Positions 1 through 18,059 of a stretch of 20,626 nucleotides of DNA are shown here, one piece after another. Source of the stretch: a virus; the IMG/VR virus record IMGVR_UViG_3300049893_002560, positions 1 through 20,626 of that record, one strand, 5' to 3'. Each line of letters starts with the position of its first letter. Within the stretch, counting starts at the first letter, position 1. A program made the position numbers and the translations under genes. The notes under the pieces are model-generated. The model worked only from the letters and a program-made list of their open reading frames with translations. It did no database searches and was not told the origin of the DNA.

Positions 1-200
1 GTGCGTTATATGCGCCTGTTAAATTTTTTGCTCTGCTTACGGCAGTCGCCTTTCGGGTAGCTCTATCCTGTACTTCTATCCCTGTCGAAACCAAGCACCC
101 CCAAAACACTACGATACATCAAGTGGAGGTGAGGGGAGTCGAACCCCTGTCCAAGAAAAGTTTCTATTCAAGCAATCTACTACCATCCTACACTACTATT
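1..200 (-). ncRNA. ssrA: Circularly permuted tmRNA (partial at the window edge)
   Basis: tmRNA frees stalled ribosomes and tags unfinished proteins. On the minus strand, bases 148-132 form a perfect T arm (AGGGG stem, loop TTCGACT), followed by the acceptor 3' strand CACCTCC (131-125) and discriminator A at 124. CCA is not fully encoded. After a 21-base intervening segment (123-103) comes the matching acceptor 5' strand GGGGGTG (102-96), which pairs over 7 bp with one G-U. Next is the tmRNA hallmark TTCGACAGG, then an A-rich stretch leading to a likely resume codon GCA at 13-11. The tag would begin A-Y-N-A and runs off the window. The 3' half therefore precedes the 5' half, as in two-piece tmRNAs of alphaproteobacteria and cyanobacteria. 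The 5' end of the acceptor piece (about 180-200) is a guess. The gene lies 23 bases or more downstream of the nuclease gene and is probably transcribed with it. Confidence 0.9.
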
Positions 201-223
201 TATCATCATCCTACGATACTATT

Positions 224-886
224 TTACTTGTTAAACGCCTCATACAAGTCACGATAATATAACAAACTATTTACATGCTTGTCTCTACGGCTTTCAAACA
301 CTTGCATAAATCCATCTTCCACCACAATGGCAATTACAAGACGATTGATGGGAATTTTTGTTCGTTCCTCGAACATGATGGCATAGGCAGCGGCTTGCAT
401 ATAGTAATGTTGAATATGCTCCTCATCTTTTTCTCGCCGTGCCGTTTTAAAGTCAATGACGCTTAACTTGCCATCAAACTCGGCAATGCAATCCACTCGT
501 CCTGCCAAGCGTAGATGATGTGACCATAACGTGGATTCTTGTGCACGAATGTTATCAATTCTATCCAACACAGGTTGTGCCACTTTGAACATCTCGTAAT
601 CCATCAAAGAGAAATCACCACCAGACAATTCATTCTGAAGATATTTTTCCGCCATGGTGTGAAATCTAGTACCACGAAATGCCGCCTTTCTGGACACACG
701 GTTGGCTTCTTCTTCACCCACACGCTCACGCCATTCCAAGATGCCTTTCTTGGTGTGGGCAGAAAGCACTGTGGTCACGGAGGGATAGAGTTTACCATCT
801 GGTGTATGATATACTCTATTCCCATCCGTGCCTGTTGTGGCTTGTAATTCTTCTATTAATATTGGATTTCTGAGAAATGTTTTCAT
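224..886 (-). CDS. PD-(D/E)XK exonuclease, RecB/MGME1-like
   Basis: Predicted 220-residue single-domain nuclease of the PD-(D/E)XK superfamily, cytoplasmic, probably acting on DNA ends in replication, recombination or degradation of host DNA. An N-terminal Y-P-S-V-T-T-V-L segment (34-41) and a G-T-x-x-H motif (72-76) precede the core: GRVD with Asp132, then V-I-D-F-K-T with Asp145 and Lys147, and a trailing Y-M-Q-A-A-A-Y-A helix with Gln164. This order matches Cas4/RecB and mitochondrial MGME1 nucleases and is common in T4-like phages. A strong sigma70-type promoter (893-921) places the expected transcript start at or next to the ATG. There is no Shine-Dalgarno sequence and no later in-frame ATG before residue 78, so translation may be leaderless. 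Substrate and polarity cannot be read from the sequence. Confidence 0.85.
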   Translation of the reverse strand: MKTFLRNPILIEELQATTGTDGNRVYHTPDGKLYPSVTTVLSAHTKKGILEWRERVGEEEANRVSRKAAFRGTRFHTMAEKYLQNELSGGDFSLMDYEMFKVAQPVLDRIDNIRAQESTLWSHHLRLAGRVDCIAEFDGKLSVIDFKTARREKDEEHIQHYYMQAAAYAIMFEERTKIPINRLVIAIVVEDGFMQVFESRRDKHVNSLLYYRDLYEAFNK

Positions 887-892
887 ACTATA

Positions 893-921
893 ATATTAAC
901 ATCACTTTCCACATTTGTCAA
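893..921 (-). promoter_or_regulatory. Sigma70-type promoter for the PD-(D/E)XK nuclease
   Basis: On the minus strand, TTGACA (921-916) and TAATAT (898-893) are separated by exactly 17 bases. The -35 box overlaps the stop codon of the PhoH gene. The start codon at 886 lies 7 bases past the -10 box, about where transcription should begin. Confidence 0.8.
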
Positions 922-1676
922 GAGGCTATCAACATCTCCTCACAAGCCAATCGTGCAATGATGTACTCTTTCACCAATGGTCCTCGAACAATATCTTCCA
1001 CTTCAAATTCCACATGCCGGAATGATGGCATATGATTGGCAATGGCCATGAACTTTTTCAACCCTGATAAATCATTTCGCTTCTGTAAATCGGTTTGTCG
1101 GAAATCACCACAGAAGATGATTTTAGTATTTTGACCTACTCGGGTCATGATGCTGTTCAGTTCCATGTCATTCATGTTCTGGGCCTCGTCCACAATCACA
1201 ATACAATTATCCAAGGTTAATCCTCGAACATAAGAGGTGACCATGAAATGGATAAGGCTTTGTTCCTTCAACTTGTTATAAGCACTTTCTCCAAATCGTG
1301 GAAACAAGTCAGAACAAATTTCTTGGTAGGGTTGTGAATACACTTCCACTTTTTCCTTCTCGTTGCCTGGAAGAAATCCAATGTCTCGGGATGGTACAGC
1401 AGAACGAACAATCACAACTTTTTTATATCCTGAATTTTCTAAAATTTCCTTGAAGGCGCTGTGCATGGCGATATATGTTTTACCTGTGCCTGCCACGCCA
1501 TGGCACAGAATGGCTTTATGTCCTTTTCGATAGTAATTGAAAAAATTTTCCTGATTTTCTGTTAGGGCCCAAATTTCTTTTAAATCTGCGAGTTTGATTT
1601 TGTGTTTGGATTCTTGTTCCTCTTGGACAATGTAAGTTTGTGAAGTAACCAATTTCAGGCGCTTTTTGCGTGACAT
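918..1676 (-). CDS. phoH: PhoH-like P-loop ATPase
   Basis: 252-residue PhoH-family NTPase. Walker A is G-V-A-G-T-G-K-T (60-67). Walker B is I-V-I-V-D-E-A-Q-N (159-167), followed by the family's sensor-like I-I-F-C-G-D-F-R-Q-T-D. The fold matches the helicase-like ATPase half of bacterial PhoH, without its PIN or KH domains. It is one of the commonest auxiliary genes of marine myophages. Its role is unsettled; RNA or phosphate-stress functions are proposed for the family, and nothing here decides between them. The start has only a weak ribosome site (GCGAG). The gene follows a terminator at 1700-1737 and no clear sigma70 promoter lies between, so it may depend on read-through or on a promoter type I do not recognise. 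Its last bases form the -35 box of the next gene. Confidence 0.93.
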   Translation of the reverse strand: MSRKKRLKLVTSQTYIVQEEQESKHKIKLADLKEIWALTENQENFFNYYRKGHKAILCHGVAGTGKTYIAMHSAFKEILENSGYKKVVIVRSAVPSRDIGFLPGNEKEKVEVYSQPYQEICSDLFPRFGESAYNKLKEQSLIHFMVTSYVRGLTLDNCIVIVDEAQNMNDMELNSIMTRVGQNTKIIFCGDFRQTDLQKRNDLSGLKKFMAIANHMPSFRHVEFEVEDIVRGPLVKEYIIARLACEEMLIAS

Positions 1677-3582: not shown

Positions 3583-4602
3583 TTAACGAATGGTGTAATT
3601 TTCCAAACTAGTGTTCAATTGTCGGTTCACCTGAATGAATTGTGCCTTGTCCTTCATTTCTGAAACATTTTTTGCATCAATGTAGGCACACGTTGAACGA
3701 ATTCCACCTAAAATGTCAGCAATAGTGTGTTCCACCAAGCCCTTGTAAGGAATTTGCACCACTCGTCCCTCGGAAGCTCGATAATTTTTCACCTGGTTGT
3801 GTTTTTTCTGAGCTGCATGACTACTCATCCCATAAAAAGTGACTTTTCCATCGTGAATTTCTTGTTCCGACTCATCATGACCAGCAAAAATACTGCCTGC
3901 CATCACCATTTCTGCACCTGCAGCCAAGGCCTTTGAGAAATCTCCGGGAAAAACACATCCTCCATCACTTTGCACACCACCTCCAACCGCTTTTGCGGCT
4001 GGAACGCACTCTTGCAAGGCGGAAAATTGAGGATATCCCACACCTGCCACACGCCGAGTGGTACATACCGCGCCGGTTCCAATGCCAACCCGTGCCATAT
4101 CGGCACCTCGAAGTAAAATATTTTCAACTGCTTCGGGTGTCACCACGGTTCCTGCCATGATGAAGGCATCAGGAATGGCATCTCGCACTTCAGCAATGAA
4201 GGAATAGAAGGGATTCATGTACCCATTTGCCACATCAATGACAATTTTAGGTGTAAAATTATCTACTCTATCCTTCCAAACACGAACAATGTCTTGAGCT
4301 TTGATGAGCTCTTCACGATTCATGCCTATTGTGATGAAAGCATGACTTACATCCTTCTGTTCCACCCATTCAGCCAAGGCATGATGTTTGGTAATGGCTG
4401 TGAAGGCGCCGAATTTCTTCAAGGCATGATGCATACTGAAGGTTCCAACACCATCCATGTTGGCAGCAATGATGGGTGCTCCATGAATTTTTGCACCCCA
4501 CTTGCCTTGTATTGTTGTTTCCACTTCCACTTGACTACGAGAAGTGATTTGAGAAAATCTTGGAACAATCAATACATCATTGAAATCCAGCTTTATCATC
4601 AT
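3583..4602 (-). CDS. guaC: GMP reductase (IMPDH/GMPR family)
   Basis: 339-residue TIM-barrel enzyme that reductively deaminates GMP to IMP with NADPH. The active-site loop reads G-I-G-T-G-A-V-C-T-T-R with catalytic Cys180. It continues R-R-V-A-G-V-G-Y-P-Q and the S-D-G-G-C phosphate loop (212-216), then the C-terminal D-I-L-G-G-I-R-S segment. Length and these blocks fit E. coli GuaC (347 residues) and not IMP dehydrogenase, which is longer and carries CBS domains. The start follows the DsbA-like stop codon directly (TGATATG), so the two are co-transcribed; a second ATG in the next codon is equally possible. It is the last gene before a terminator. GMP reductase is an unusual phage enzyme; with the PurA-like synthetase at 7254-8276 it suggests guanine-to-adenine conversion. 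Confidence 0.93.
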   Translation of the reverse strand: MMIKLDFNDVLIVPRFSQITSRSQVEVETTIQGKWGAKIHGAPIIAANMDGVGTFSMHHALKKFGAFTAITKHHALAEWVEQKDVSHAFITIGMNREELIKAQDIVRVWKDRVDNFTPKIVIDVANGYMNPFYSFIAEVRDAIPDAFIMAGTVVTPEAVENILLRGADMARVGIGTGAVCTTRRVAGVGYPQFSALQECVPAAKAVGGGVQSDGGCVFPGDFSKALAAGAEMVMAGSIFAGHDESEQEIHDGKVTFYGMSSHAAQKKHNQVKNYRASEGRVVQIPYKGLVEHTIADILGGIRSTCAYIDAKNVSEMKDKAQFIQVNRQLNTSLENYTIR

Positions 4603-4603
4603 A

Positions 4604-4864
4604 TCAAGATACCTTCTTGGTCACCGTTTCATAAAGTGTTTCAAAATCCTTGTGAAGCTCAACTTCCTCGCTGAAGTTGCCCTTGTGATAGGTGCGAGCC
4701 AACTTGTTCAACACCTTTCTATTCAATTGAAGGTCATCACAAATATCACTTTTCACATTCTTCATCAAATCACGTTCTGCTTCCACTCTGGCCATGCTCG
4801 CAGAAATTTCCTTCAAGGCATCAAGGAGCTTTAACTTGTCGGCTGGTGTCGTAGGTAATGTCAT
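4604..4864 (-). CDS. DsbA-like late-transcription DNA-binding protein
   Basis: 86-residue protein resembling T4 DsbA, a double-stranded DNA-binding protein that stimulates late transcription. The C-terminal half matches best: a L-N-K-L-A-x-x-Y-H-K motif followed by an acidic helix with L-Y-E-T-V. This parallels the F-N-R-L-L-A-L-Y-H-K and E-L-Y-D-T-V of T4 DsbA as I recall it. The ATG at 4864 is preferred because GGAGAA lies 9 bases upstream; the longer reading frame would add 22 residues without a ribosome site. The first 44 bases overlap the end of the amidase gene. If correct, a T4-type late promoter system (octamer TATAAATA, see 16184-16191) should operate in this phage. Confidence 0.7.
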   Translation of the reverse strand: MTLPTTPADKLKLLDALKEISASMARVEAERDLMKNVKSDICDDLQLNRKVLNKLARTYHKGNFSEEVELHKDFETLYETVTKKVS

Positions 4865-5354
4865 TGTATATTCTCCATAACTGAAAATGTTCACCTGGGT
4901 CTTTCTTTCGTGTTTTCGGATAGGCAACATCTGAATGACCCAGAATTGGTTTGTCTTTGCTATCCGGATATCTAAAGTTAATATAATTCACTAATATTTT
5001 CAAGGCCTGATATTGCTCTTCCGTGTATGGTAAAAAGTTTGTCCCTTGTAAGCATACACCGATGCTGAAAATATTCCAATCGCTTATTCCATTCCATTTC
5101 GAAACTCCTGCGTGTAACGCCTTCTGTGTCAAATCTTTCCATTGATGTATTTCTCCTGTTCGAGAAATGAAATAATGATAGGACAATCTTCTTCTTTTCA
5201 AGATGGCGCGTGTTGCCGTGGCACTTAAACTGGCGCCATCATTGTGTATTACAATGTAATTTCTTGTAGTATCTCTGAGTGTTTTACCCGGCAAGAAATT
5301 CTTTACTACCAGCGGAGCTTGTAGTTGTAGTGCGAGTGCTAATGTTGTCAGCAT
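4821..5354 (-). CDS. N-acetylmuramoyl-L-alanine amidase (endolysin)
   Basis: 177-residue Amidase_2-type zinc hydrolase that cleaves the bond between MurNAc and the stem peptide, likely the phage lysin. Zinc ligands are visible as His37 (Y-I-V-I-H-N-D-G), His140 (L-G-H-S-D-V-A) and Asp152 (K-K-D-P-G), as in AmpD; H-A-G at 81-83 is also typical. I chose ATG 5354 because AAGGAGGAG lies just upstream; the frame is open 24 bases further. Residues 1-17 are hydrophobic (L-T-T-L-A-L-A-L) and could be a weak signal or signal-anchor sequence, so export independent of a holin is possible. The gene overlaps pspC by 71 bases and dsbA by 44. Confidence 0.9.
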   Translation of the reverse strand: MLTTLALALQLQAPLVVKNFLPGKTLRDTTRNYIVIHNDGASLSATATRAILKRRRLSYHYFISRTGEIHQWKDLTQKALHAGVSKWNGISDWNIFSIGVCLQGTNFLPYTEEQYQALKILVNYINFRYPDSKDKPILGHSDVAYPKTRKKDPGEHFQLWRIYNDITYDTSRQVKAP

Positions 5355-5541
5355 GGATCTCCTCCTTGTCTGGTACAATGAACCATGCTATAACATATCC
5401 AATCACGGCAGGCACTGGTGTCCAAATCATCAGAAACCATGCAAACCGTATCAAGGTCACATCTACATTCCACATCTCACTTAATCCTGCGCAAATCCCA
5501 CCCAACTTTCCCTTCTTGATATTACGATACCATTTTGTCAT
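5284..5541 (-). CDS. PspC-domain membrane protein
   Basis: 85-residue protein with an N-terminal PspC domain: the K-x-G-K-L-G-G-I-C-A-G-L-S segment, then V-D-V-T-L-I-R and a hydrophobic helix of about 25 residues ending A-W-F-I-V-P. The tail is polar and Thr/Ser-rich. Host PspC proteins sense envelope stress at the inner membrane. The phage copy may act during lysis or envelope damage, because it lies between uvsE and the amidase and overlaps both genes. The start at 5541 has GAGAGGAA upstream. Family assignment is confident; role is inference. Confidence 0.85.
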   Translation of the reverse strand: MTKWYRNIKKGKLGGICAGLSEMWNVDVTLIRFAWFLMIWTPVPAVIGYVIAWFIVPDKEEIHADNISTRTTTTSSAGSKEFLAG

Positions 5542-6433
5542 GTCTATTCCTCTCGTATAGTGTCCAGGCCAGTTCCTTTGCTTTCGTTTCCAAGTCAACG
5601 TCAATATTTAGTCCGTAATCATCCAATGTCAATAGAGCATAATCGGAATGTGCTCGGGGATTACCTTGAACACTTTCATTCAAGTTTTTGCTTTCACTGT
5701 AATGAAACAATGGCTTGTAATCCCAGGTCTCAGATGCCATGATAGCAGCTTCTTTGCTTGACAATCCATCAGGATGAAATGTGTGATGAAAATAATCAAA
5801 CGTGATGGGTGTGCCAATGGCAGCATAGATATCATATAGTTGCTTTACTGAATAGGCGTTTGCCTTGTCATCATTTTCCACCACCAACCTAGCCTTGGTT
5901 GATGCGTTCAACATTTCAAAGCGTTCCATGAAACGATTTGTGGTTTCATCGCTTCTGTTCATCCCAACATGAATATTGAGTGGATAATAATGCGTGGCAG
6001 GCAATCCCATCATGTTCATGATCCAATCATGATGGTTCAAGTCATGTATGGAACGGCGAACCACGATATCCTTTAATGTACCAAGTTTCACAAAATGGTC
6101 GGGATGAAAACTCACCCGTTGTCCAGATTGTTTAATGATTTGACCTGCCAGATGTAGATATTCCAGGATAAGAGAATAATCAGGCAATTGATTCACTTCA
6201 TATTCCGAATTCCAAGGGAAGATGTTGCTGCCAATTCGGAACACGCGTACATTGTTATCCTCGTTCCACTTCAGTATCTTCACCAAATCTGTGGCATTCT
6301 GCAAAGCCAGCAAGGACGTACGCTGCAGCTTCGTGTCCTGCTTGAATGAAGCCTGGCGTAACGTCCTTCCAGTGGTAATCTTTTCTTTGCCTAATGTGAG
6401 ATTGATACAGCAGTACCCAACTTGATGTGGCAT
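5522..6433 (-). CDS. uvsE: UV-damage endonuclease UvsE/UVDE
   Basis: 303-residue TIM-barrel endonuclease that nicks DNA 5' to UV photoproducts to start alternative excision repair. Family landmarks in order: N-terminal V-G-Y-C-C-I-N, F-R-I-G-S-N-I-F-P, S-F-H-P-D-H-F, L-N-I-H-V-G, V-V-E-N-D-D, T-F-D-Y-F-H-H and a H-Y-S-E-S segment. Together these supply the His, Glu and Asp metal ligands. Length is normal. The start has GAGGTG 3 bases upstream and lies 26 bases after a near-consensus promoter (6459-6487). Its last 20 bases overlap pspC. It leads a run uvsE-pspC-amidase-dsbA-guaC that ends at the terminator at 3534-3565. Confidence 0.93.
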   Translation of the reverse strand: MPHQVGYCCINLTLGKEKITTGRTLRQASFKQDTKLQRTSLLALQNATDLVKILKWNEDNNVRVFRIGSNIFPWNSEYEVNQLPDYSLILEYLHLAGQIIKQSGQRVSFHPDHFVKLGTLKDIVVRRSIHDLNHHDWIMNMMGLPATHYYPLNIHVGMNRSDETTNRFMERFEMLNASTKARLVVENDDKANAYSVKQLYDIYAAIGTPITFDYFHHTFHPDGLSSKEAAIMASETWDYKPLFHYSESKNLNESVQGNPRAHSDYALLTLDDYGLNIDVDLETKAKELAWTLYERNRHDKMVS

Positions 6434-7017: not shown

Positions 7018-7257
7018 CTACATCCTCTTGATTAAATTATTCCAATTCACTTCGAATATGAAATATAACAACGTTTTAAGTACCATGTCAAGTAATGAAA
7101 TGTTCACACTAATTTGTAAATTTTTTGTCAACATCATGGAGAACACAAATGTCATCATCACAGAAAATCCACGATACAATATGGACTTCACAAACAACAC
7201 ACGATTGCTCATCCATCTACGACCCAGAGCCCATCGGATATAGGCAATAATTCTCAT
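7018..7257 (-). CDS. Small membrane protein, DUF2061-like
   Basis: 79-residue protein with two hydrophobic helices: about 30-43 (S-V-M-M-T-F-V-F-S-M-M-L) and about 53-71. Basic S-I-L-Y-R-G-F-S lies between the N-terminus and helix 1, and E-V-N-W-N follows helix 2. This arrangement resembles DUF2061 two-helix proteins. The start overlaps the PurA-like stop codon (ATGA) and GGAAGG precedes it, so it is translationally coupled. Function unknown; inner-membrane location predicted. Confidence 0.75.
   Translation of the reverse strand: MRIIAYIRWALGRRWMSNRVLFVKSILYRGFSVMMTFVFSMMLTKNLQISVNISLLDMVLKTLLYFIFEVNWNNLIKRM
7062..7091 (-). promoter_or_regulatory. Sigma70-type promoter for the 92-residue gene
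   Basis: On the minus strand, TTGACA (7091-7086) and TATATT (7067-7062) with an 18-base spacer, or TTATAT with 17. It lies inside the DUF2061-like gene, 46 bases before the next start codon. Confidence 0.75.
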
Positions 7258-8276
7258 ACGCCTTCCGGTGTTGTGGACCAGATGATGTCATGCAACTCGG
7301 AACGGTAATGCCAACGAATGGTATCCTCAACAAAGCTCTTGAATTGTGAAGCTGTATCAAGCATTGTTCGAGTTCCATTGAACACCACACCATATTTTCC
7401 TACTTGCTCCAAAACATCTATCTTGTTAATGATAAGATGTGTCACATCATTAATGTACATGGCTTGAATTACTCCGTCAAGATGTAACCATCGCACCTGG
7501 CGCTTTCTTCCAGTTGTGGCACCAAATTCTTGCCCCACTTCTTGTATCTTTTCAAAGATAGGAGAATCATCTGTGAAATGGGTTTTGAATCCTGAATAGG
7601 TCTCATATGCCTTCATGACACCATAGACATTTCTCCAGGTTCTGGGAGGAACACCATTCAACGCCACGGCACCAGAAGTGCAATGTGAGCTGGTGACATA
7701 GGGATAATCACCCCAATCAATGTCAATTTGAAATCCTTGAGCTCCTTCACACAACACATTCACCTCACGATTGTCACCATGAAAATATCTATAGGTGTCA
7801 ATCATGTCATAGGGAAGGTCCCAGCTGTTATATTTCAAAAAATTGGCGATGCGTGTGCCAGTTCTGGCATACTTGTCTCGGTAGGTGGGACCAATGCCTT
7901 GGCGTGTGGTACCAATCTTCGTGTCATCACTATCTTCCCGAATATGTTCTTCTGTGGTGACATGGCATCTTCCATCAATCATGATGGGAGCTTGAAACCC
8001 GAGATGCTTTAACATATCAATTTCATCACGAAGTTTCGGAAGATTCACCACACACCCCACGCCAATGATGCTGGGAATGCCATAGAACACACCCACAGGC
8101 ACTTGATGAGTTACCACCTTTTGTCCTTGGTGGTAAATGGTATGCCCGGCATTGGCACCGCCGTTATATCGAAGCACGGCATCATATTTGTTTTGTTTGG
8201 CTAACCAATGTGACACCTTGCCCTTGCCTGTGTCACCTGCCTGAAGATCCACCACAATGTCGGCATATCGAATCAT
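7254..8276 (-). CDS. Adenylosuccinate synthetase family (PurA/PurZ-like)
   Basis: 340-residue GTPase-fold ligase that joins aspartate to a purine nucleotide. Visible sites: P-loop A-G-D-T-G-K-G-K with Asp15, N-A-G-H-T with His45, I-G-T-T-R-Q-G-I-G-P (121-130) binding the nucleotide, Y-P-Y-V-T-S-S (191-197), the aspartate loop A-T-T-G-R-K-R (253-259), N-K-I-D, and a C-terminal I-I-W-S-T-T-P. It is about 90 residues shorter than E. coli PurA, the size of archaeal PurA and of phage PurZ. PurZ makes 2-aminoadenine precursors from dGMP. As I recall, PurZ replaces the catalytic Asp with Ser; here Asp is kept but the next Glu has become Thr. Substrate (IMP or dGMP) is therefore open. It is co-transcribed with the DksA-like gene upstream and the DUF2061-like gene downstream. 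Confidence 0.9.
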   Translation of the reverse strand: MIRYADIVVDLQAGDTGKGKVSHWLAKQNKYDAVLRYNGGANAGHTIYHQGQKVVTHQVPVGVFYGIPSIIGVGCVVNLPKLRDEIDMLKHLGFQAPIMIDGRCHVTTEEHIREDSDDTKIGTTRQGIGPTYRDKYARTGTRIANFLKYNSWDLPYDMIDTYRYFHGDNREVNVLCEGAQGFQIDIDWGDYPYVTSSHCTSGAVALNGVPPRTWRNVYGVMKAYETYSGFKTHFTDDSPIFEKIQEVGQEFGATTGRKRQVRWLHLDGVIQAMYINDVTHLIINKIDVLEQVGKYGVVFNGTRTMLDTASQFKSFVEDTIRWHYRSELHDIIWSTTPEGV

Positions 8277-11843: not shown

Positions 11844-11872
11844 AGCGACAGCATCACGACAGTGGTGTCGCT
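11844..11872 (-). repeat. Inverted repeat after the GP88-like gene, possible terminator
   Basis: AGCGACA pairs with TGTCGCT around a 15-base loop, directly overlapping the stop codon. It lacks a T-run, so it may be a weak terminator or an operator next to the AAA+ promoter. Confidence 0.45.
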
Positions 11873-12594
11873 TATGCCGCCCGGGTCAGCGACACCAGAT
11901 CCGACACGGCACCCGACACCACGAACCCAGAGGCATCCTTTTTCGCCTTGCCGTTCGCCTTCAGGCCCACGATAACAAAGCTGGGGTCCAGGAATCGGAG
12001 ATCCGTCTCCGTCCCATCCACCACGGTGATGCCCATATACTTGTCGGGAATGGTGTCGAACACCACCGCCACATTCATTTGCGACATCATCCGAATGGTG
12101 TCCATGTGGTTCACCTCGGAGCGGCTGAAGGTGAGGTGATAGTTGCTGGGAATGAAATTGCGATTGGTGAGCTTGGTGTAATCGTAAAACTGCGTGGTCG
12201 GGAACGCCTCCATCACGTTCCGATACTCCACCCCATCCTTCACCACGGCATACTGCTCCCAGCGAATGTCGCTGGTGCCATTCAGGCGAAACACCGCCTT
12301 CAGCCCCGCCTTCTGGCTCTTGCGAATGGCGGCACCAATCTCCTTGACCAGCTGAGCCATGAACGCCTTGCGATCCTCGAAAAAGTAGCGGGTCTTGGCG
12401 ATACGCGCCGCCTGAACGTTGCTGAACCTGCCCATCCCGCTCAGGTTCAGGCACGCCTCAGCACAACCCGGGGACGCCATGGGGCAGACCTGATAACCCG
12501 ACAGGGTGCTCGGCGCCAGGTGCATGATATAGGTCTGGTAGCCGTACTTCTCGCCCTTCATGGTCTTGGTGTTGGCAATTCCCAAAAGCTTCAC
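11872..12594 (-). CDS. GP88-like conserved phage protein
   Basis: 240-residue protein with a Cys cluster near residues 37-48 (C-P-M-A-S-P-G-C-A-E-A-C-L) followed by G-R-F-S-N-V-Q-A-A-R-I-A-K-T-R-Y-F-F. This combination marks a phage family I recall as gene product 88 (Pfam GP88); that name is from memory. Three closely spaced cysteines suggest a metal or iron-sulfur site. Function unknown. The start is GTG at 12594, chosen because GGAGA lies 6 bases upstream and the leader matches those of the neighbouring operons. Its promoter is at 12622-12649. Confidence 0.75.
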   Translation of the reverse strand: MKLLGIANTKTMKGEKYGYQTYIMHLAPSTLSGYQVCPMASPGCAEACLNLSGMGRFSNVQAARIAKTRYFFEDRKAFMAQLVKEIGAAIRKSQKAGLKAVFRLNGTSDIRWEQYAVVKDGVEYRNVMEAFPTTQFYDYTKLTNRNFIPSNYHLTFSRSEVNHMDTIRMMSQMNVAVVFDTIPDKYMGITVVDGTETDLRFLDPSFVIVGLKANGKAKKDASGFVVSGAVSDLVSLTRAA

Positions 12595-16181: not shown

Positions 16182-16211
16182 AATATAAATATCGGTGTGC
16201 ATCTCATTCAA
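16182..16211 (-). promoter_or_regulatory. Sigma70-like promoter for the 62-residue gene
   Basis: Minus strand TTGAAT (16211-16206), 18-base spacer, TATATT (16187-16182). The -10 box overlaps the plus-strand late octamer, making a shared divergent promoter core. Confidence 0.55.
16184..16191 (+). promoter_or_regulatory. T4-type late promoter octamer
   Basis: Exact TATAAATA on the plus strand, upstream of the only plus-strand operon in the window. A DsbA-like protein elsewhere in the window fits T4-style late transcription. By chance such an octamer would occur in about half of windows this size, so its position is the main support. Confidence 0.5.
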
Positions 16212-16692: not shown

Positions 16693-17105
16693 TGCACCAG
16701 AAAGACATGCTGTTTTGCGTGGACGTGGTGAAGCGGTTAGCCAGAAACAGTCGTGCCACACGGGCGAAAGTGGGGTGCGTCATCTGGGACATGAAACGCA
16801 GAACCATTGTGAGTCTGGGGTATAATGGCACGCCCGAGGGTGAAGATAATCAGATGGAGCTGGACAACGTAACGTTAGATACGGTGGTGCATGCCGAAGT
16901 GAATGCGTTAAAGAAGTTGTCCTGGTATCAACGGAAGCGACATTTCGTGTTGTTTGTGACCCATGCGCCATGTAGAAATTGCGCCATGGAAATTGTGCAC
17001 TCAGGCATTAAAAAAGTCTATTACTTGGACAATTACGGGTCTGCTGCGGGATTGGAACATCTCAGGAACCATGGGGTGGATGTGCGGCGATTGTTACCTG
17101 TATGA
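16692..17105 (+). CDS. dCMP deaminase-like zinc enzyme
   Basis: 137-residue cytidine/deoxycytidylate deaminase-fold enzyme. Zinc site: H-A-E with His67 and catalytic Glu69, then P-C-R-N-C with Cys94 and Cys97; S-L-G-Y-N-G-T-P at 41-48 is the substrate loop typical of dCMP deaminases. The expected reaction, dCMP to dUMP, feeds thymidylate synthesis for phage DNA. It is shorter than T4 gpCd (193 residues) and lacks an obvious allosteric insertion. The start overlaps the previous stop codon (TGATG); an in-frame TTG 15 bases upstream is the alternative. Confidence 0.92.
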   Translation: MHQKDMLFCVDVVKRLARNSRATRAKVGCVIWDMKRRTIVSLGYNGTPEGEDNQMELDNVTLDTVVHAEVNALKKLSWYQRKRHFVLFVTHAPCRNCAMEIVHSGIKKVYYLDNYGSAAGLEHLRNHGVDVRRLLPV

Positions 17106-17605
17106 TTTTCATTTATTTACAACACAATCATTTTCTGATTTCCGAGAAAACACATCGGGAACTGCGTGAGAAACATCCTGGGTTGGAATTGATTAGAACA
17201 TTCAGAACCATTCAGGATGCCAGAAGCTGGGTGGCGAAACAATCCCGAGAAGTGTTGGATCTGGTTACGAAACAACACACAGGCATCACGCCAGAAGGAC
17301 GAGAACGAATGCGTGAGAAGAAACGTGGGAAGAACAATCCCAATGCTGGGGGTTTATCAGCAAGTCACAGAGCGAACATCTCCCGAAACAAGAAGATGAT
17401 GTATTTGCGAGATGGTAACCCCATGTACAACAGAAAGCATAGCATGCAAACCAGGAGAAAAATGAGCTGGGGGCAGATGCGGAAAATGAAACGCAGATGG
17501 ATGGTGGATCCAGCTGGTCGAGAACATCTCATGAACATTACATTTCCCTTGCCTCCAGGATGGGTACTGGGACGTGCTCGGGGACAAGCTGGCAGGCACA
17601 TATAA
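17102..17605 (+). CDS. NUMOD3-type DNA-binding protein
   Basis: 167-residue very basic protein. Residues about 73-120 contain NUMOD3-like repeats: K-R-G-K-N-N-P-N-A-G-G-L-S and G-N-P-M-Y-N-R-K-H-S-M-Q-T-R-R-K-M-S. These DNA-binding modules belong to the tails of GIY-YIG and HNH homing endonucleases. No GIY-YIG or HNH catalytic domain is seen in the first 70 residues, so this may be a nuclease remnant or a DNA-binding protein in its own right. The start overlaps the deaminase stop codon (ATGA). Last gene of the plus-strand operon, followed by a palindrome and twin terminators. Confidence 0.75.
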   Translation: MIFIYLQHNHFLISEKTHRELREKHPGLELIRTFRTIQDARSWVAKQSREVLDLVTKQHTGITPEGRERMREKKRGKNNPNAGGLSASHRANISRNKKMMYLRDGNPMYNRKHSMQTRRKMSWGQMRKMKRRWMVDPAGREHLMNITFPLPPGWVLGRARGQAGRHI

Positions 17606-17626: not shown

Positions 17627-17662
17627 AAGCCCCTCACGGGGCTTAAGCCCCTCACGGGGCTT
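17627..17662. terminator. Duplicated bidirectional terminator
   Basis: Two exact 18-base copies, AAGCCCC-TCAC-GGGGCTT, in tandem (17627-17644, 17645-17662). On the minus strand the second hairpin is followed by six T; on the plus strand by TAATTGTTTTT. It serves both the plus-strand operon and the HNH gene, whose stop codon lies in the hairpin arm. Confidence 0.88.
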
Positions 17663-18059
17663 AATTGTTTTTATTTTGCAATTTATAATCACCTTGTAAG
17701 ATGCCTTTCATGGTATGGCACGGGTCACACAATTCATCGGCATTTTCTGGTGTATTGTTCCAATGATTGCCATCTTTATGATCCACTTGTGTGAGACCTA
17801 TAGCCCAGGGTGATTTCTGATAATCCCACCCACACACAAACCCCAAATGCCCATCAGAATTGCTGCATTTTCCTGTTTTAAATGGGGTGACACCTGCAGG
17901 GAGTGGTAGTTTCTTGTATCCTGCTATATGACACGTTACACAGAATGGTCGCCAACGCGTGCCACAATGAGTGACATATCTTCCACAACCTGGATTCAAG
18001 CAAATGGGGCGGTTTTTCACCTTTTTCAAAGGGCGTCCCCGTTTCTTTTTTTTAGGCAT
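17661..18059 (-). CDS. HNH endonuclease-like protein
   Basis: 132-residue protein. The N-terminus is very basic with an AT-hook-like K-R-G-R-P (6-10). Four cysteines (20, 25, 40, 43) form a first zinc site. The HNH core follows: V-D-H-K-D-G-N with His94, N-N-T-P-E-N (Asn102 onward), then C-D-P-C-H with Cys111, Cys114 and His115. It may be a free-standing homing endonuclease or a phage HNH nuclease. It overlaps the upstream 62-residue gene by 8 bases, and a weak ribosome site leaves the exact start somewhat uncertain. Confidence 0.88.
   Translation of the reverse strand: MPKKKKRGRPLKKVKNRPICLNPGCGRYVTHCGTRWRPFCVTCHIAGYKKLPLPAGVTPFKTGKCSNSDGHLGFVCGWDYQKSPWAIGLTQVDHKDGNHWNNTPENADELCDPCHTMKGILQGDYKLQNKNN

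Follow-up and report, generated by a model that had tools for sequence, protein, structure and literature searches.

Whose gene is the tmRNA at the end of this virus contig, and what would it do for its owner? The window, by which we mean the whole stretch of DNA analysed, is an entire linear virus record of 20,626 bp, both of its ends being record ends. Its first bases, read on the minus strand, had been described in an initial annotation as a circularly permuted tmRNA gene whose layout pointed to capture from a host of alphaproteobacterial or cyanobacterial kind. The reading that we favour, to which we give a probability of about 85%, is that a T4-like aquatic phage carries in bases 204-1 (-) a circularly permuted tmRNA gene with its promoter, complete except for the rest of the tag and the 3' end, which lie beyond the contig end.

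The tmRNA gene proper occupies 184-1 (-), and the contig end cuts inside its tag. In a cmscan search the tmRNA_permuted family RF04321 was the sole RNA family match in the window, at 184-16 (-), with 93.9 bits (gathering cut-off 47 bits) and E 2.3e-17; model positions 1-172 of 213 were matched before the alignment stopped at the contig end, and the complete relative L082 matched positions 1-213 with 109.3 bits. This covariance-model match in permuted order bears out the two-piece layout first proposed for the phage contig, and the positions then assigned (148-125, a 21-base spacer, 102-81) proved exact by script and sequence, as did the pairing of the 7-bp acceptor stem. ARAGORN made no tmRNA call on the window because the gene is truncated at the contig end; in close relatives it calls the complete gene as permuted ('tmRNA*'). 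The relatives with a whole gene are viral contigs picked by a close exonuclease homologue (nearest 97% identity) or by the tmRNA pattern. The order along the minus strand is P2 strand, T arm, acceptor 3' strand, spacer, acceptor 5' strand, TTCGACAGG, P2 return strand and tag start, preceded by a promoter box:

197-204, minus strand: GATAAATA box, a probable late promoter of T4 type for the tmRNA gene, judged from its fixed position and from strand bias
153-184, minus strand: 5' side of the long P2 helix (acceptor piece), from the first RF04321 positions and cofolding with the coding piece
132-152, minus strand: GGAC and T arm, from the RF04321 alignment and script coordinates, T stem with 5/5 pairs
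152-149, minus strand: GGAC, from script coordinates
148-132, minus strand: T stem, loop and stem AGGGG-TTCGACT-CCCCT (stem 148-144/136-132, loop 143-137), from the RF04321 alignment
131-125, minus strand: acceptor 3' strand CACCTCC, from sequence and script coordinates
124, minus strand: discriminator A, from the sequence
103-123, minus strand: intervening segment (spacer) of 21 nt, from the coordinates; its removal is expected to give two RNA pieces
96-102, minus strand: acceptor 5' strand GGGGGTG, 7/7 pairs with 131-125 including G3-U70
89-81, minus strand: TTCGACAGG, from script coordinates
81-93, minus strand: TGGTTTCGACAGG, the tmRNA D-like region, from the RF04321 alignment and coordinates
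55-63, minus strand: GAGCTACCC, 3' side of the outer P2 helix, partner GGTAG near 184, from the RF04321 alignment and cofolding
1-16, minus strand: start of the tag frame, GGC GCA TAT AAC GCA C.., read as G-A-Y-N-A..., truncated by the contig end and completed in relatives

The bases after the discriminator are CTT, that is, CCA is not encoded in the window. The spacer is identical to that of L115 and the P2 strands match those of L109 (the first identical, the second with one difference), so the gene appears to be a local mosaic. We considered worse pairing of exchanged P2 strands as proof of their co-evolution and rejected it: the first strand of the window pairs equally well or better with several other partners, and by cofolding energy native partners were not consistently better than exchanged ones.

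The window shows the first five tag codons, and the complete tag and stop codon are found in relatives that match its tag bases. The full tag GAYNAPLALAA was read in nine fetched loci, ARAGORN reporting it with tmRNA* in L082, L083, L085, L094 and L110; sister tags from the same program are GTYNTPLALAA, GTFNSPLALAA, DNNYMSFATSYALAA, DNSYMSNANSYALAA and DNSYMSYANYSYALAA. The tag had been taken to begin A-Y-N-A, and these residues are there, but the predicted resume codon is GGC at 16-14 (-), one codon earlier, because GGC, unlike GCA, suits the Thr that GTYN and GTFN tags have in second place. Among distinct genes, the resume codon reads GGC in 7 phage cases and GAC in 8, as against an alanine codon in 80/80 distinct bacterial permuted genes sampled. 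Gly and Asp resume codons are unusual, yet precedented, 30 Gly and 3 Asp first tag codons being already listed for tmRNAs (PMC1168896); the non-Ala first codon is common to both sets, the examples named there being bacterial and ours phage permuted genes. We found no description in the literature of Gly or Asp resume codons in this phage clade. All tags of the clade keep the ALAA end and vary in their N-terminal halves, and it is to the N-terminal half that the difference of GAYNAPLALAA from bacterial tags is confined. The earlier suggestion that the tag may send its products to another fate does not fit the usual LALAA degron in these nine loci. A search by tag-start pattern returned unrelated sequence in five of 15 stretches (L217, L218, L219, L222 and L223).

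When would such a gene be transcribed? The box GATAAATA at 204-197 (-) lies 52 nt from GGAC and is one base off the T4 consensus TATAAATA. In each of the 22 clade loci listed, [T/G]ATAAATA precedes the GGAC of the T arm by 52 or 53 nt, and the position is kept even where a different gene lies upstream (L002, L107, L095 and L099); most of the 22 have no clear -35 box, while L002 has TTGAGA at 19-nt spacing. Across loci L002-L081, the coding strand has 137 copies of KATAAATA and the opposite strand 13 (GATAAATA alone, 54:2), the counts for control octamers being much nearer balance; as these loci are related and so not independent, a p-value for the bias serves as a rough guide. The window furthermore encodes a DsbA-like transcription protein (4604-4930), whose T4 relative acts at late promoters. 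We infer from these patterns that the tmRNA gene is transcribed late in this phage. Timing may differ within the family, since the window box is not the T4 consensus and more distant relatives, read by eye, seem to use TTGACA-type (sigma-70-like) promoters instead. A fixed [T/G]ATAAATA box ahead of a phage permuted tmRNA is a feature for which we found no description in the literature. The only exact TATAAATA in the window, at 16184-16191 (+), precedes the plus-strand genes at about 16.2-17.6 kb (a deaminase and a NUMOD3 protein), placed as would be expected of a late promoter, though one match is near chance. In the phage Melnitz, to which we return below, several such boxes stand directly ahead of structural genes; its tmRNA gene (L142 5201-5653) has TATAAATA with TTGACA about 17 nt before it, so that sigma-70 and late-promoter readings both fit, and its authors call this promoter early (PMC9004378).

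Under the reading preferred here, the transcript would begin some 10 nt downstream of the GATAAATA box and would probably be made late in infection. Going by permuted tmRNAs in general, host tRNA-processing enzymes would excise the 21-nt spacer, and CCA, which is not encoded, would be added to the acceptor end by the CCA-adding enzyme of the host. The two pieces of the predicted molecule would join through the acceptor stem and P2, whose pairs are seen in the sequence. Host AlaRS would charge it at G3-U70 and host SmpB would deliver it to stalled ribosomes; eleven longer records of related phages yielded no SmpB, so that of the host is presumably used. The ribosome would resume at GGC and add GAYNAPLALAA, the tag read from relatives, and the LALAA end should direct the product to ClpXP-type proteases. 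The phage would benefit in that ribosomes are kept free and truncated proteins are cleared during infection. A more specific proposal, possible but on balance doubtful, is that in this T4-like phage clade the permuted tmRNA has become a late gene, driven by a late promoter of its own and encoding a phage-specific tag (resume codon Gly or Asp, N-terminal half altered, ALAA end kept), so that late trans-translation would work with tags unbound by host adaptors that recognise the usual A-N-D start.

A possible objection is that the tmRNA serves against the host, mainly competing with host tmRNA or destroying host proteins, and is not an aid to phage translation. The altered N-terminal tag residues and the Gly/Asp resume codons would suit such a role, and the Melnitz authors propose host-protein tagging for amino-acid recycling (PMC9004378). 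The normal tag frame with its ALAA end suggests ordinary tagging, however, and a late-type promoter suits help in the translation-heavy late phase and not an early takeover. We consider an anti-host role unlikely, while noting that it involves the same molecule and chemistry as our favoured reading, so that confidence in the one is not exclusive of confidence in the other.

The surroundings of the gene bear on how long phages have carried it. Two genes precede it on the same strand:

224-886, minus strand: PD-(D/E)XK exonuclease gene, directly upstream of the tmRNA gene (PF12705; phrog_298 exonuclease; synteny)
918-1676, minus strand: PhoH-like gene, upstream of the exonuclease gene (PF02562, E 5.1e-49)

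Of the 80 loci that have a homologous exonuclease gene, 43 gave a permuted tmRNA call with ARAGORN, in every case 9 to 2,280 nt downstream of the exonuclease gene and on its strand; at other positions relative to the exonuclease gene there was none among the 80 loci. This conserved position, together with the same order in Melnitz, indicates that the tmRNA gene is an old part of a phage block. Of the 42 distinct phage genes that were parsed, 41 form 7/7 pairs in the acceptor stem, where pairs 4, 5 and 6 show changes in both strands, and 41 have G3-U70; 12 loci were left unparsed in this survey, and the single exception is a mis-parse or a divergent row.

Could the gene nevertheless be an earlier acquisition in decay or a passenger, by now functionless or being lost? 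No tmRNA was called in the other 37 of the 80 exonuclease loci, in part owing to contig ends or ARAGORN misses, and two close relatives carry a deletion after GCACCTCT that takes away the codons for LALAA together with the stop codon and the downstream hairpins:

5741-5900 of L003: tag deletion region
3284-3500 of L115: tag deletion region

In L115 the tag frame continues into the downstream PP-loop gene. These losses may be real deletions or assembly faults; if real, the gene may be dispensable. The window contig terminates four bases short of the same deletion point, so it may have stopped at a branch in the assembly or belong to a variant with a real deletion. Against decay, diverged phages have retained the acceptor stem, the T arm, G3-U70, an open tag frame and the ALAA end, with compensatory substitutions, and the promoter box holds its position despite different upstream genes. 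We therefore regard decay as very unlikely. The gene directly downstream of the complete tmRNA gene of L002 (7629-8273, +) encodes a PP-loop/QueC-like protein that weakly resembles QatC.

Elsewhere in the window, a minus-strand gene at 7254-8276 encodes an adenylosuccinate-synthetase-like protein of the PurA/PurZ family, under all curated cut-offs, and another at 3583-4602 (-) a GMP-reductase-like protein (367 bits, cut-off 397). A purine or 2-aminoadenine-type pathway is possible from this pair; the annotated genes of the window showed no DatZ, MazZ or polymerase. We also noted a UV damage endonuclease UvsE/UvdE at 5522-6433 (-) as phage cargo (153 bits, above the NCBIfam cut-off of 124), a GP88 family protein at 11872-12594 (-) (PF17338, E 3.6e-50), and two probable homing endonucleases, a NUMOD3-motif protein at 17102-17605 (+) and an HNH-like protein at 17661-18059 (-).

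We turn to the lineage of the gene, and with it to the idea of recent capture from a host among the alphaproteobacteria or cyanobacteria. Both groups usually have permuted tmRNA genes, and the alpha model passes its own cut-off on L082; betaproteobacteria, a third lineage with permuted tmRNA, had been omitted. First, the older Rfam class models gave L082 98.8 bits for beta, 63.5 for alpha and 49.2 for cyano, a lead of 35 and 50 bits. The match to beta_tmRNA (RF01850) spans the full model and exceeds its cut-off of 84; the alphaproteobacterial subtype RF01849 did not score best, and the match to the cyanobacterial subtype RF01851 was partial and below the cut-off of 70. The beta model was highest in seven phage relatives (L082, L101, L090, L112, L095, L109 and L088), with some more distant clade members under its cut-off (L101 81.8, L088 81.2 and L090 69.9).

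Second, in a tree of 136 genes with few columns (204), the window falls inside a phage clade of 16 (support 99) that lies near betaproteobacterial genes and apart from 57 alpha-type genes (support 96). The phage clade (99) stands beside and outside the bacterial beta clade (99), the two being joined at support 86, and most of the beta genomes compared had been retrieved with a pattern resembling the window and are a biased sample. An exact search of bacterial genomes for the T arm and acceptor of the window found none, and a looser search found 24 stretches, all labelled betaproteobacteria. A near-identity search of annotated phages returned nothing. A match to Synechococcus phage S-CBWM1, from a distant search with the tmRNA, was set aside as a 36-nt stretch of T arm too short for meaning. 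By the class models and the tree, recent capture from either group is highly improbable; the conserved locus and the separation of the phage clade from bacterial sequences favour a phage gene, and any capture would be old.

The host cannot be read from the tmRNA type, because Melnitz has a Methylophilales host yet an alpha-type tmRNA (PMC9004378). Among 120 genomes sampled from the order that includes Thauera, only 5 scored above the permuted cut-off, so a standard tmRNA gene is what a host from this order would usually carry. The nearest proteins (about 37-52% identity) are spread over cyanophages, Melnitz, the unassigned Kyanoviridae phage C48C1 and others, which gives no host assignment.

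Two-piece tmRNAs in phages have been counted before, with 53 cases (PMC9004378), and the PhoH-exonuclease-tmRNA order with a permuted tmRNA is already published for Melnitz. To these the window and its relatives add a beta-type lineage, and they present the tmRNA as a long-standing member of this block in T4-like aquatic phages and not a one-off host gene. The altered tag start and late-type promoter raise the question of whether ribosome rescue in the late phase of infection is run by these phages themselves, and whether its tags escape host adaptor proteins.

Among the closest known systems is Melnitz itself (EXVC044M, MZ577097; PMC9004378), a Methylophilales phage whose tmRNA is likewise phage-borne and permuted, in PhoH-PDDEXK nuclease-tmRNA order on one strand. 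Its tag ANDNYVPVDYALAA has a YALAA end, and its tmRNA is of alpha type (106.7 bits alpha, 25 beta), whereas relatives of the window score best with beta. Melnitz encodes CCA and has a spacer well over 100 nt, where the window has no CCA and 21 nt; Melnitz also differs in having a glutamine riboswitch on the 3' side of the tmRNA, and its sigma-70-like promoter and Ala resume codon are unlike those of the window's clade. The betaproteobacterial permuted tmRNA (RF01850; Thauera, Azoarcus, Accumulibacter) provides the best class model for the window's relatives and shares the GGGGGTG/CACCTCC acceptor stem, the full CCA not being encoded in most parsed examples. It differs in its ANDERFALAA-like tags and Ala resume codon, in scoring (324 bits for Thauera with the beta model, 70-100 for the phage clade) and in forming a separate clade, although this bacterial set is biased, most of it having been collected with a window-like pattern. 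Finally, the cyanobacterial-type viral contigs L089, L091, L092, L097 and L105 carry tmRNAs that are also permuted and viral, with the same acceptor stem and T arm, but differ in type, L091 scoring 129.6 bits with the cyano model, and in their long tag, ...AANNIVAFSR...
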